Under the pieces are notes generated by a model. It was not told the DNA's origin and did not search any database. It saw nothing but the letters and a program-made list of their open reading frames with translations. DNA of 30,705 nt, from positions 1-30,705 of IMG/VR virus record IMGVR_UViG_3300042549_003232, one strand, 5' to 3'. Positions 8,611-21,103 of the stretch are shown piece after piece; positions within the stretch are counted from its first letter, which is position 1; the number at the start of each line of letters is the position of its first letter. This DNA comes from a virus. Made by a program: the position numbers and the translations under genes.

Positions 8611-9558
8611 TTATTTTGTTGCTAATTTACTAATTTTTAATAACCATTTTTCAAACTTGGCTAAATCCTTAATCGGATCTAATTGCTTTGCCCTCTCAAT
8701 TGGTTTTTTATCTTTAAATAACTGGTCACTATTTGTGACCGCTTCAACCCATGAATCAATATTGTTTCTCTGAACGTAAACGGCGCTATCTGCGAGGCTT
8801 TCTCTAAATCCTGCTATATCTGATGCAATTACAGGAATATTGCAACATAGGGCCTCTACCTGAGCCATCCCATAACTATCATATTCGCTTGGCGCAATCA
8901 GCAATTTAGTCATTGCCAAATATTTCCTAATATCCTCAGTAATTCCAACGTATTTAATATTTTTAACCTTTGCATCCGTTATCTGCGGATAGTAACCGCC
9001 CTGCACCGCTAAAAATTTATGGTTAGGCATCCGCTTTGCAATTTCAATTAATATTTTTCCGCCCTTGTTTTCATTATGGTTTATTAGTGTAATATATTCC
9101 GCTTTGCTTGTATCGACATCTTTAAAATCCCTATAATCAACTGGAGGATGTAAAACAAATGTTTCTTGATTATAGTTTAATTCCTTTTTTGCTTGTTCTG
9201 TATTATAAACCGTATAAACGTTTTTACGAATATCTACCTGCGGATAGCCGGCATTGTTATGAGTGAAATTAATTATCTTTTTATTTACTAGCCTTTGTTT
9301 GTTCATAGCATAATAAGTGCCTGATAATTGGCAAAACACTAAATCTGCCCAATCCCATAAATTATTATGACATATTTTGTAGTCCTTAACCTGAGCATAA
9401 ATATCTATTCCTTCATAACTGTAATCTTTAGGATACCTAGTTATTGCCTTAACCTCATGCCCTTTGCTCATTAAATACTTGCAAATCCTGTGCAAACAAA
9501 TCTCTGAGCCTGCTCTTTGATGTGGTAAATATATTCCCGGACTTAATAGAATTTTCAT
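8611..9558 (-). CDS. GT4-type glycosyltransferase
   Basis: A 315-residue protein with the layout of group-1 (GT4, GT-B fold) glycosyltransferases. The N-terminal domain begins MKILLSPGIYLPHQRAGSE, with the Gly-Ser-Glu loop typical for the family. The C-terminal nucleotide-sugar domain has YVGITEDIRKYLA, LLIAPSEYDSYGMAQVEALC (the E-x7-E type region) and PVIASDIAGFRE. It probably transfers a sugar from a nucleotide donor; the acceptor is unknown. It overlaps the upstream gene by 4 bp and ends the cassette, 31 bp before the connector gene. Confidence 0.85.
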   Translation of the reverse strand: MKILLSPGIYLPHQRAGSEICLHRICKYLMSKGHEVKAITRYPKDYSYEGIDIYAQVKDYKICHNNLWDWADLVFCQLSGTYYAMNKQRLVNKKIINFTHNNAGYPQVDIRKNVYTVYNTEQAKKELNYNQETFVLHPPVDYRDFKDVDTSKAEYITLINHNENKGGKILIEIAKRMPNHKFLAVQGGYYPQITDAKVKNIKYVGITEDIRKYLAMTKLLIAPSEYDSYGMAQVEALCCNIPVIASDIAGFRESLADSAVYVQRNNIDSWVEAVTNSDQLFKDKKPIERAKQLDPIKDLAKFEKWLLKISKLATK

Positions 9559-11598: not shown

Positions 11599-12344
11599 AT
11601 AAAATATTTATTAAAGTTTTGATGCATTCTAAGGCTTTCAGGCAACTCATTTTTTTCAAATGGTATAGTATCCCATAAATTGTATGAAACGCAATGTAAA
11701 TCCTTAATATCGTTATCAGGTGTCCATGCGTAAAAGGTATCATCTAGCCAATTCTTTTTAATCTCATTAGCATGACCAAACACCAAATATTTATACCTCA
11801 TGATAGGCTCCGGCTGGCAGGTGCTGAAATGATAAATAGTTTGCTTTAAATTTAGGTTTTGTTTATTGTTTTGCCTATGCAAATTTTCCAATCTTATAGG
11901 CCTAAACCCATCTAAGCAAATATGATTGAAAGACCTCCAAAAGTTTATAAAACCATCAATACCATAAAATCGTTCCTCATTATTAAAGGCATAATCATAA
12001 CTAGCATATAACTCATCAGACTTGTAAACCTCATCTGAATCAACTGTTAGCACCAAATCAAAACCAGCTGAGTATTTATACTTTACATTTCTATGCTCAT
12101 TTTCGGCGCCGTATCTCTCCGCCCTATCCCAAATCATTTTATCCCCTAAAACATCTTTGCAAATATTATAAATGTACTCCTCACTATCCGGACATTGTAA
12201 ATTAGTTCCATGACCCTGAGAAGGTTGCTTACTGTAAGCTATTACCATTTTATCTACATTATCCACAACTGATAGCAAAGACTCTTTTAAATAGTCCCCA
12301 GCGTAGTGGATAGTCATGAATCCTAGTACTTTATATTTGCTCAT
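11595..12344 (-). CDS. GT2-like glycosyltransferase
   Basis: A 249-residue protein. It starts KVLGFMTIHYAGDYLKESLL and carries FDLVLTVDSDEVYKSDEL near residue 95, where DSDE is a DxD-type motif that would hold a metal-bound nucleotide sugar. Other points are YSKQPSQGHG near the N-terminus and a C-terminal half rich in aromatic residues (FWRSFNHICLDGFRPIRLEN). This fits a GT-A/GT2-like enzyme; donor and acceptor unknown. It overlaps the CgeB-like gene by 14 bp and the small gene downstream by 4 bp. Confidence 0.68.
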   Translation of the reverse strand: MSKYKVLGFMTIHYAGDYLKESLLSVVDNVDKMVIAYSKQPSQGHGTNLQCPDSEEYIYNICKDVLGDKMIWDRAERYGAENEHRNVKYKYSAGFDLVLTVDSDEVYKSDELYASYDYAFNNEERFYGIDGFINFWRSFNHICLDGFRPIRLENLHRQNNKQNLNLKQTIYHFSTCQPEPIMRYKYLVFGHANEIKKNWLDDTFYAWTPDNDIKDLHCVSYNLWDTIPFEKNELPESLRMHQNFNKYFI

Positions 12345-13242
12345 ATTCCTTTATTATGTTTTTAACCATTTTGTCAAATGTATAATTTTCTCTAACAAAT
12401 TGCTGACCTTTTAACGCTAATTCTTTACGCTCATCCTCATGCTCCAAATAGTAATTAATCAACTCAATCAACTCCCTAAATGTTTGCCAAGTTCTTAAAT
12501 GCTGACCATCTATAAATGGCATCTCAGCGTATTCCATAGCTAGGCATAAACACCCCGAACCCATTATCCTATAAATCCGATCACTTGAATATTTAGGCTC
12601 ATCAAAATGACTTAAATTAATCCCTATCTTAATACCTCTGTAAGCCTTAGCCTCCTCAGCTTGACTGCTATTAAAGTTACCTGCGCTATTTATCCAATTA
12701 TTGCCATAAACTCCGTAGCGGCCTCTAAAATGCTTTAGCAGTAAATTATTCATTTGAATCCTCATCCTAGATAAAGGAAACTTTGCCGATCCGTAATTAT
12801 TACCAAAAAACCCAATCTCCGGCAAATTAAAACTATCCCCCTCCGGCTTATAAATATCCGGATCATAACCTATCTCTAAATACCCTCCATTAACCACATT
12901 TTTAGCATCTCTTAAATTACTGAATAAAGTCCTATCAATATGCGGAGCCATATCAATCATCCATTGCGGAGTCCTTTCTCTAATATCTCCATTCCAATTA
13001 ATAATGAAACCGCCTGTTTTTTTCAACTCCTTTACTGTTTCAATATGGATTATGTTTTCGGCTTGGATTTGCATAAATATGATATCAGGCTTAAATGCTT
13101 TTGCCATATTAATAGCCTTTTGGTTTACATCTTGTTCTCCAGTACTTAACTCAATGTAATCAGTACAATTAGCTAAAAAGGCTTTGCGCATTGAATCAAA
13201 AGGCGGAGGCCCAACACATAAACCTAAATGGAATATTCTCAT
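12331..13242 (-). CDS. CgeB-like GT-B glycosyltransferase
   Basis: A 303-residue protein with a Rossmann-like N-terminal half (KPDIIFMQIQAEN, FIINWNGDIRERTPQWM) and a C-terminal half with GIKIGINLSHFDEPKYSSDR and IYRIMGSGCLCLAMEYAEM. The segment 'R.Y.IMG.GC.CL' followed by a Glu is typical for CgeB/Glyco_trans_1_2 enzymes, which bind the sugar nucleotide there. It overlaps the preceding small gene by 4 bp and leads the cassette of sugar enzymes. Confidence 0.78.
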   Translation of the reverse strand: MRIFHLGLCVGPPPFDSMRKAFLANCTDYIELSTGEQDVNQKAINMAKAFKPDIIFMQIQAENIIHIETVKELKKTGGFIINWNGDIRERTPQWMIDMAPHIDRTLFSNLRDAKNVVNGGYLEIGYDPDIYKPEGDSFNLPEIGFFGNNYGSAKFPLSRMRIQMNNLLLKHFRGRYGVYGNNWINSAGNFNSSQAEEAKAYRGIKIGINLSHFDEPKYSSDRIYRIMGSGCLCLAMEYAEMPFIDGQHLRTWQTFRELIELINYYLEHEDERKELALKGQQFVRENYTFDKMVKNIIKEYEQI

Positions 13243-13632: not shown

Positions 13633-13747
13633 TAGTCAGGACAGGATTCGAACCTGTATGCTAACAATCACTGGCGATTCATGTACGTCTACAATCCTTC
13701 GCTGTTAGTCTCACAAATTAAGCGTCTACCAATTCCGCCACCTGACT
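13633..13747 (-). tRNA. Class-II-like tRNA with abnormal anticodon/variable region
   Basis: The acceptor stem is perfect (AGTCAGG with CCTGACT). The D arm GCGGAATTGGTAGACGC is of tRNA-Leu type, and the T arm ACAGG-TTCGAAT-CCTGT is perfect. The middle is odd. The best anticodon arm is TTAAT-TTGTGAG-ACTAA with one A-C mismatch; it would give anticodon GTG, which does not suit a Leu-type body. A 47-base variable region follows, in which CTAACA can pair with TGTTAG and GCGA with TCGC. Total length is about 115 nt and CCA is not encoded. The identity is therefore uncertain. A promoter-like site places the transcription start at its first base. Confidence 0.7.
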
Positions 13748-19816: not shown

Positions 19817-19824
19817 TACATTTG
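19817..19824 (+). promoter_or_regulatory. Plus-strand -7 element for tRNA-Gly
   Basis: TACATTTG on the plus strand fits TAnnTTTG and ends 8 bases before the first base of the tRNA-Gly. No clear TTTG is seen about 20 bases further upstream (only a T-rich ATGTTTTTT), so it is a half match. The spacing to the tRNA matches that at the other tRNA-like gene. Confidence 0.5.
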
Positions 19825-19831
19825 TATAAAT

Positions 19832-19901
19832 GCGAGGTTAGTGTAATGGTAACACATTAGGCTTCCAGCTTAAAATCGGAGTTCGATTCTACCACCTCGC
19901 T
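19832..19901 (+). tRNA. tRNA-Gly (anticodon TCC)
   Basis: The only plus-strand gene seen. Acceptor GCGAGGT pairs with ACCTCGC; the D arm is GTGT-AATGGTA-ACAC. The anticodon arm is TTAGG-CTTCCAG-CTTAA (one G-T pair) with anticodon TCC; the T arm is CGGAG-TTCGATT-CTACC, with two mismatches (C-C and G-A). The discriminator base is T and CCA is not encoded. It would read GGA codons. The weak T stem could mean decay, or constraint from the antisense mom-like gene that shares 19857-19901. Confidence 0.8.
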
Positions 19902-20507
19902 CACATTAATAACCTTGCAATTTTGTAAGGTTATTTTTTTTGGATAAGGCTTTTTTAATAAATCACATAAACTAAAAATATTTTTATTTAAAGGATATAT
20001 ATATTTATATTTTCCTGGCTTTTTTCTTTTTTCTAGTTTTTTATAGTCCTGAGAGTTTAATTTTGCACTTGGAGTCCTATTATGTGACCACCTTCCTTTA
20101 TAAAAAACCTCCTCCCCACTGCTTTTTATATCATCAACAAAATACCAATTAGTTGCTTGATAAATAATACCTAAATGATCTTGTCCCTTATCAGCATAAG
20201 AAATTAATAACCTAACTGTTGGATTAGATTTTTTTATTAATTTAATAGCTATACTCATTGCCTTAGATGTACTTTCTTGTTTACCATTTAAAGCCATTCT
20301 CGTAAGTTCTAAATATTGACCATAAAATAAACCAAAAGGCCTACCCATATATGCACCGGCACCACCTCCAAATAATATTACCCCACACCATTCATTCTTA
20401 TCATTAAAAACAGAATATCCAAAATATTGAGCTGGAACAACTTTTGAATAATGAAAATTTAAGCAAGCATATTTAATAGCTTTATGTGATGCAATTTCTA
20501 ACTTCAT
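19857..20507 (-). CDS. mom: Mom-like DNA adenine modification protein
   Basis: A 216-residue protein resembling Mu Mom, a GNAT-fold enzyme that converts adenine in phage DNA to a methylcarbamoyl form and blocks restriction. Family-like parts are NFHYSKVVPAQYFGYSVF, GVILFGGGAGAYMG, GQYLELTRMAL, and RLLISYADKGQDHLGIIYQA followed by NWYF. Similarity to known Mom ends near residue 172 (YPL). The last 28 residues are encoded antisense to a plus-strand terminator and tRNA-Gly, so the tail looks like a late addition. It overlaps the ParB-like gene by 4 bp. Confidence 0.78.
   Translation of the reverse strand: MKLEIASHKAIKYACLNFHYSKVVPAQYFGYSVFNDKNEWCGVILFGGGAGAYMGRPFGLFYGQYLELTRMALNGKQESTSKAMSIAIKLIKKSNPTVRLLISYADKGQDHLGIIYQATNWYFVDDIKSSGEEVFYKGRWSHNRTPSAKLNSQDYKKLEKRKKPGKYKYIYPLNKNIFSLCDLLKKPYPKKITLQNCKVINVSEVVESNSDFKLEA
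19908..19941 (+). terminator. Plus-strand intrinsic terminator after tRNA-Gly
   Basis: A perfect 9-bp stem (AATAACCTT with AAGGTTATT) around a 10-base loop is followed by a run of eight T's overlapping the end of the stem. It starts 7 bases after the tRNA discriminator base and lies inside the mom-like coding region on the other strand. The T run is on the plus side only, so it acts on tRNA-Gly transcription. Confidence 0.8.
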
Positions 20508-21103
20508 ATTTCTCCTGCTGACACTGAAAAATAAGCACCTTTATATTTCCTATCTATTAATTCTCTAATATCATTTTCTGCTTCTTGCAGTTGTTCTACA
20601 TTTTCAAAGGTTATTTTCATTGTTGCAGGCTTATTTTTCTCATCTCCTATTAAATCATCTCCAAATGGTTCAGTGTCAAAATTAGGAACATCTAGGGCCC
20701 ACTCATCTAATTTATCCGCATCCCATTCATTAGCCAACTGATCCCAATCCCATTCACCAAAACCAACGTTATCCTTAATCAAAAATTCATCCCTTTGCTC
20801 CTGAGTCCAATCATCAGCCAAAACAATAGGTATTTCTTTAAGACCAACCTCATTCGCTGCTTTTAATCTCATATTACCACCTAATACAACAAACTTACCA
20901 TCTACATCTGTAAAACAAACCAAAGGCCTCTTTTCGAGCATCTCAGGAAATTCCTGGATAGACTTGACTAACTTTTTAAACTTGTCATCCTTTATTACTC
21001 TAGGATTTTTACTATTTGCCTTAATGGCTGAGATTTTTACTTTCATATTTTTATGCCTGCTAATTGATTTTTTCTGCCTGCTCCTTGCCTGTAATTTATT
21101 CAA
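20504..21103 (-). CDS. ParB-like nuclease-domain protein
   Basis: A 199-residue protein with a ParB/Srx-type domain: VKISAIKANSKNPRVIKDDK, then KFVVLGGNMRLKAANEVGLK with the GGNMRLKA box at 75-82, and EFLIKDNVGFGEWDWDQL. An acidic C-terminal part follows. An inner start at Met20 (MKVKISAI) would fit the domain better than the first ATG. In other phages such genes accompany DNA-modification enzymes; here the mom-like gene overlaps it by 4 bp. Its role is probably DNA-bound and auxiliary, not partitioning. Confidence 0.8.
   Translation of the reverse strand: MNKLQARSRQKKSISRHKNMKVKISAIKANSKNPRVIKDDKFKKLVKSIQEFPEMLEKRPLVCFTDVDGKFVVLGGNMRLKAANEVGLKEIPIVLADDWTQEQRDEFLIKDNVGFGEWDWDQLANEWDADKLDEWALDVPNFDTEPFGDDLIGDEKNKPATMKITFENVEQLQEAENDIRELIDRKYKGAYFSVSAGEI

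Follow-up and report, generated by a model that had tools for sequence, protein, structure and literature searches.

The Mom protein of phage Mu makes alpha-N-(deoxyribosylpurin-6-yl)glycinamide, according to PMC3874153, which cites Swinton (1983), and an acyl-CoA, for example glycyl-CoA, has been predicted as the donor (PMC7824862). Glycine identity of bacterial tRNAs is determined by U73, G1-C72, C2-G71, G3-C70, C35 and C36 (PMC9976931), and pairs 49-65 and 51-63, which set the affinity for EF-Tu, are weakened in a non-proteinogenic cell-wall tRNA-Gly of S. aureus (PMC4052509). Here we describe a phage mom gene whose end overlaps a tRNA-Gly-like RNA. We think it likely that the two form a DNA-modification system of two parts, Mom and its own glycyl-tRNA, in which a base modification would draw its building block from an aminoacyl-tRNA.

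The mom gene and the RNA unit at its end

The window, by which we mean the whole stretch of DNA analysed, is a 30,705-base IMG/VR virus record. It comes from a phage whose terminase, portal, capsid and tape-measure genes lie on the minus strand, and whose mom is flanked by an HNH gene and a ParB-like gene (Table 1); a ParB-like neighbour of mom is also present in phiEf11, Microbacterium phage Appa and Arthrobacter phage Sicarius2. A nucleotide search for the locus among named phages returned no match.

The minus-strand ORF at 19857-20507 (216 aa) encodes a true Mom of family PF25680, with residues 5-190 matching at 118.4 bits against a curated cut-off of 27.1, and is also matched by PHROG 1384; as a member of this family it would be expected to form N6-carbamoylmethyl adenine in DNA. 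Compared by fold with Mu Mom (8bv8), its core gives a Z of 20.2 across 178 residues; the folds that come next, which are the nearest non-Mom ones among the matches listed, are CoA-dependent acetyltransferases (Z ~12) and argue neither way on the donor. Residues invariant in the Mom alignment include H19, Y20, E67, R70, S103, D106, Y116 and Y169, and S81 aligns with S124 of Mu Mom, the position substituted in the structure of an inactive mutant.

Table 1. Positions of the features of the mom locus in the window
Feature	Position	Strand	Basis or remark
Promoter-like box TACATTTG	19817-19824	+	sequence; 7 nt ahead of RNA
tRNA-Gly-like RNA	19832-19901	+	ARAGORN, Rfam, family model R1, covariation
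Non-conserved Mom C-terminal tail, residues 191-216, and stop	19857-19937	-	read through terminator and RNA
Terminator hairpin and T run of RNA unit	19908-19941	+	sequence and folding
mom conserved GNAT-fold core, residues 1-190	19938-20507	-	Pfam, PHROG, AlphaFold, Mu Mom 8bv8
ParB-like gene	20504-21103	-	directly upstream of mom

The first-pass annotation of this DNA had described a complete tRNA unit on the plus strand, and all three of its elements were recovered: TACATTTG, the tRNA-Gly(TCC) and the terminator hairpin. ARAGORN calls tRNA-Gly(TCC) at 19832-19902 (+), Rfam agrees (tRNA, 50.1 bits, E 4e-8, 19832-19901), and the family model R1 described below scores the RNA at 83.8 bits. The anticodon TCC occupies 19864-19866, U73 is at 19901, and CCA is not encoded. 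We take TACATTTG to fit the Bacteroidota TAnnTTTG promoter box, which on its own is common in the window (68 matches vs 48 expected). The terminator-like hairpin (19908-19935) has 12 bp, including one G-U pair, followed by the T run, and a folding energy of -13.2 kcal/mol (z -6.3). The mom stop codon (19857-19859, minus strand) falls inside the tRNA, just as the annotation had it.

Mom similarity, which the same annotation saw ending near residue 172, in fact extends to ~190, where the core closes with Y188-P189-K190. Its view that the tail is no part of the Mom core holds: pLDDT in the AlphaFold model is ~95 in the core and ~50 in the tail, which is predicted to be disordered beyond residue 190, and among relatives without the RNA, whose Mom ends it had wished to see compared, several stop right after the core (L267, L272, L281). 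It had further proposed that the unit invaded the gene and replaced its old end. The tail is indeed read-through into the RNA unit; a single recent invasion, however, does not fit a pairing that spans several bacterial phyla.

Elsewhere in the window lies a second tRNA-like element (13633-13747, minus strand), matched by Rfam as tRNA at 39 bits and missed by ARAGORN. It has a Leu-like D-arm, a perfect acceptor (AGTCAGG/CCTGACT-A), a perfect T-arm, and an anticodon and variable region enlarged by ~45 bases. Its T-arm/acceptor string, CAGGTTCGAATCCTGTCCTGACTA, occurs in at least 120 viral contigs (L317-L435, e.g. L325, L335, L403 and L408; also L112), with AGTCAGG upstream of 134 of 155 copies, mostly followed by TGGCG; the middle is hypervariable and of very different lengths, and there can be up to six copies per 5 kb. 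Matched by Rfam only as weak tRNA, these elements look, from their sequences, like an undescribed multi-copy phage tRNA-like family. Small as it is, the phage of the window also carries two glycosyltransferase genes (8611-9558 and 12331-13242), the second of them near this element.

Linkage of the RNA to mom across viruses and bacteria

When the window Mom was used as a protein query, 80 viral-contig loci were recovered, with Mom proteins 44-100% identical to it. In about half of them ARAGORN called a tRNA adjoining mom, in every case tRNA-Gly except for two that were left unassigned with a partial anticodon, and the remaining loci, read by eye, contained degenerate relatives of the same tRNA-Gly-like RNA. 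Since ARAGORN misses about half of the RNAs on account of this degeneracy, we built a covariance model, R1, from 22 of the mom-adjacent RNAs. Over the 597 kb of these 80 Mom loci, R1 has exactly one match per locus (45-85 bits) and no other. In 74 of the 80, the mom reading frame enters the RNA or crosses it, and in same-strand loci the RNA starts at a median of 3 nt past the conserved Y-P-K end of Mom. The link between modification and tRNA that had been suspected from the window is real, but opposed transcription, which had been offered as its basis, finds no support as its main purpose, the RNA lying on the same strand as mom in 63 of the 80 loci and antisense in 17.

The reverse search made no reference to mom. 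Two T-arm/acceptor signatures were scanned over 2.9 million viral contigs, and at least 165 signature sites were found. Among the matches listed, 162 carry an R1 match at the signature, and mom is within 3 kb of 153 of these 162, nearly always within 100 nt; the nine signature RNAs without mom among the matches listed are at contig or locus ends. The other three of the twelve signature sites without mom, in L153, L162 and L210, were set aside, as they hold no family RNA at the signature position. Many of the mom genes reached in this way belong to a second subfamily, ~22% identical to the window Mom (MGRAKEIIVKV... proteins, e.g. L104, L233 and L247), which has the same RNA at the gene end.

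For bacterial genomes a closer Mom alignment was used, the diverse one being too loose for a genome scan, and 39 Mom loci made up the sample. In Bacteroidota and Acidobacteriota, as well as in one bin each of Deltaproteobacteria and Clostridium, the RNA comes after mom. In Chloroflexota it lies upstream of mom, mostly within ~120 nt (L293, L294, L296, L297, L299 and L301), and CCA is encoded in the two Chloroflexota RNAs read (L294 and L297). Among named phages, Appa has an annotated tRNA-Gly(ccc) after mom, the mom-linked RNA of Sicarius2 is called by ARAGORN, and Arthrobacter phage BarretLemon carries an unannotated tRNA-Gly-like RNA over the mom stop (L083:2095-2165, NC_031252.1); Rfam, even at permissive thresholds, missed the Arthrobacter RNAs. 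The association of the RNA with mom is established by these searches. At the same time, no RNA match was present in the whole records of Mu and phiEf11, within ~1.5 kb of mom in representatives of the distant Mom groups (Casjensviridae, Herelleviridae, ICP1), or near mom in about half of the 39 bacterial loci, from which we conclude that a private tRNA is not essential. The gap after mom in phiEf11 (L082:2107-2242) contains a minus-strand hairpin, a terminator and a TATAAT box, which may belong to a small RNA of another kind.

The orientation of the RNA changes repeatedly. On a tree of 130 Mom proteins, at least 17 changes of the orientation label fall on well-supported branches, and L002, with a Mom identical to that of the window and an antisense RNA, is sister to L003, where the RNA is on the same strand. 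That the RNA has stayed with mom while flipping many times and even switching sides is difficult to account for unless the two work together. It could be argued that an ancestral tRNA simply became stuck at mom, the overlap of coding frame and RNA making separation costly; the linkage, however, outlasts both the flips and the move upstream, and the RNA structure is under strong selection (see below), which makes such passive hitchhiking extremely improbable.

tRNA genes often serve phages as attachment sites, and this frequent use would favour an attP or recombination hot spot derived from a tRNA and located at mom by chance. Against this, integrase was absent among the window ORFs scanned (a subset of all ORFs, on a contig that may be incomplete), the RNAs are whole and covarying, unlike the host tRNA-Gly sequences read, and they occur on either strand and also upstream of mom. 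We give an integration site next to no weight.

Transcription signals differ between the two arrangements. The box TANNTTTG is found ≤25 nt upstream of the RNA in 46 of 57 distinct antisense loci (shuffled mean 3.2) vs only 6 of 95 same-strand loci, and a terminator-like hairpin follows the RNA in 39 of the former and one of the latter. The rarity of both in same-strand loci is what excision of the RNA from the mom transcript would predict.

Features of the RNA that are kept and lost

The structure of the RNA is strongly selected. Pairing in the acceptor, D and anticodon stems reaches 98.5-99% across the family alignment, both partners have changed in 16 pairs, and covariation scores 0.761, compared with 0.255 for shuffled alignments. 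The T-stem is a different matter: in its canonical register, 51-63 is unpaired in 22 of 22 RNAs and 49-65 in 19 of 22, but once a single A is moved out as a bulge, pairing rises to 100%, with compensatory changes. The window RNA, too, lacks the standard five-pair T-stem of bacterial tRNA-Gly and is fully paired in the bulged register. The two T-stem mismatches that the first-pass annotation had remarked on (49-65 and 51-63) are thus real, though covariation turns them from separate defects into one conserved bulged A, at 19891 in the window. Dual coding, which had been suggested as the reason for them, finds no support as the cause, as the same bulge is present with the RNA on either strand and upstream of mom. 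Actinophage RNAs are without the bulge. By the criterion of PMC4052509, 49-65 and 51-63 of the window RNA are weakened as in the non-proteinogenic tRNA-Gly of S. aureus.

Decay is also seen in the loops. A 7-nt anticodon loop with U33 is missing in 51 of 69 distinct RNAs, among which are changes at position 33 and many 8-nt loops, and a D-loop without GG is found in 30 of 80 relatives; the window RNA has a normal 7-nt loop with U33 (CTTCCAG) and keeps GG at 18-19. By contrast, U73, G1-C72, C2-G71, C35 and C36 are kept throughout the family and G3-C70 in nearly all members, although the kept ends and CC were imposed by the scanner, which demanded a GC start, a GCT end and a CC, and the ARAGORN isotype calls are independent of it. 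The window RNA has the full glycine identity set (U73, G1-C72, C2-G71, G3-C70, C35 and C36). In five bacterial genomes the next-best R1 matches are ordinary tRNA-Gly by ARAGORN, and the host tRNA-Gly sequences read have ordinary T-stems. On sequence grounds, these features suggest an RNA that looks chargeable but is ill-suited to protein synthesis.

Could this nevertheless be an ordinary phage tRNA-Gly(UCC) that supplies translation by reading GGA and GGG codons? The window RNA has the anticodon TCC in a standard loop and might, with its U33, still decode, and GGA leads among the Gly codons of the listed window ORFs, with 176 of 508. The loss of the normal loop in most relatives is at odds with such a role, as is a T-stem bulged at the very pairs read by EF-Tu, unlike the host tRNA-Gly sequences read. 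Further to that, tRNA-Gly is the sole isotype beside mom, and nearly all the signature matches listed adjoin mom. Supply of codons is therefore a very improbable function.

The RNA might instead be a decoy. By mimicking tRNA-Gly, it would absorb defence enzymes of the host directed at tRNA-Gly, for example toxSAS FaRel2 or TacT-like GNAT toxins, and form a counter-defence pair with mom; FaRel2 picks tRNA-Gly and tRNA-Thr via the acceptor stem (PMC11559606), and Gly-tRNA-Gly is acetylated by TacT, as specified by U73 and G71 (PMC9976931). However, a shield of this kind leaves unexplained the near-exclusive pairing with Mom in the reverse matches listed, the retention of C35 and C36 in an RNA with a decaying loop and T-arm, and the glycinamide product, and we regard it as very improbable.

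The proposed glycine donor and comparison with known systems

A glycine tRNA that appears chargeable, avoids translation and is found almost only with Mom points to glycyl-tRNA as the donor. What is observed directly is the RNA with its structure, the features it has retained or lost, and the fact that it pairs almost exclusively with mom; we consider it quite probable that this dedicated glycyl-tRNA, evading EF-Tu, is the glycine donor for the neighbouring Mom. Because the bacterial glycine identity determinants are kept, we propose that the host glycyl-tRNA synthetase would charge the RNA. The broken T-stem and, in most relatives, the defective anticodon loop would keep it off the ribosome and EF-Tu. 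As a transferase of the GNAT fold, Mom would then pass the glycyl group from the RNA to N6 of adenine in phage DNA, and the glycine amine would migrate to C6 by a Smiles-type rearrangement via a five-membered spiro ring, or by an equivalent amine exchange. The original N6 would end up as the amide nitrogen, and the predicted product is the glycinamide known from Mu, which would protect phage DNA from restriction. Mom enzymes without the RNA, that of Mu included, would draw on host Gly-tRNA, and a private glycyl-tRNA pool would be of advantage where much DNA needs to be modified quickly.

Standing against glycyl-tRNA as donor are the published prediction of glycyl-CoA or another acyl-CoA (PMC7824862) and the nearest non-Mom folds, which give the GNAT fold of Mom its CoA-dependent neighbours. 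On these grounds Mom could use an acyl-CoA, with the RNA acting as its cofactor, inhibitor or regulator and not as a glycine carrier. We hold this to be unlikely: all six determinants of glycylation stay while most else in the RNA drifts, and a mere binding partner would not need them; Mom families without the RNA are, moreover, also common.

If the glycyl-tRNA donor reading is true, it would explain the source of the glycinamide group in Mom-modified DNA, Mu included, and define a family of natural tRNAs released from the task of decoding. To our knowledge, this would be the first DNA base modification found to draw on an aminoacyl-tRNA. In the literature searched, with preprints and subscription papers outside its range, we found no prior report of Mom together with glycyl-tRNA or tRNA-Gly. 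Should glycyl-tRNA turn out not to be the donor, the tie between a dedicated tRNA-like RNA and a DNA-modifying enzyme would still be new for both.

Among known systems, Mu Mom (PF25680; PDB 8bv8) has the same fold as the window Mom, with H19, Y20, E67, R70, S81, D106 and Y116 conserved; it differs in its regulation by Com and in having no such RNA anywhere in the genome, whereas the window mom has a tRNA-Gly-like RNA incorporated at its end. The S. aureus non-proteinogenic tRNA-Gly, with its weakened 49-65 and 51-63, likewise feeds non-translational glycyl transferases, the FemXAB enzymes of peptidoglycan (PMC4052509). There, the T-stem has weak pairs in place of the bulged A of the window RNA, and GG at positions 18-19, kept in the window RNA, is replaced; here, the proposed acceptor is adenine in DNA, and the tRNA gene is carried by a phage, where it is fused to that of the enzyme. 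L/F-transferase, MprF and PacB also use an aminoacyl-tRNA as the source of an amino acid for an acceptor outside the ribosome, as proposed for Mom, but in none of them is the acceptor DNA. We know of no aminoacyl-tRNA-dependent transferase of this kind with its own tRNA gene at the enzyme gene. Codon-supply tRNAs are, like the RNA described here, encoded in phage genomes, but usually come as decoding-competent arrays of several isotypes, whereas the mom RNA is of a single isotype, is tied to one enzyme and is often unable to decode normally.
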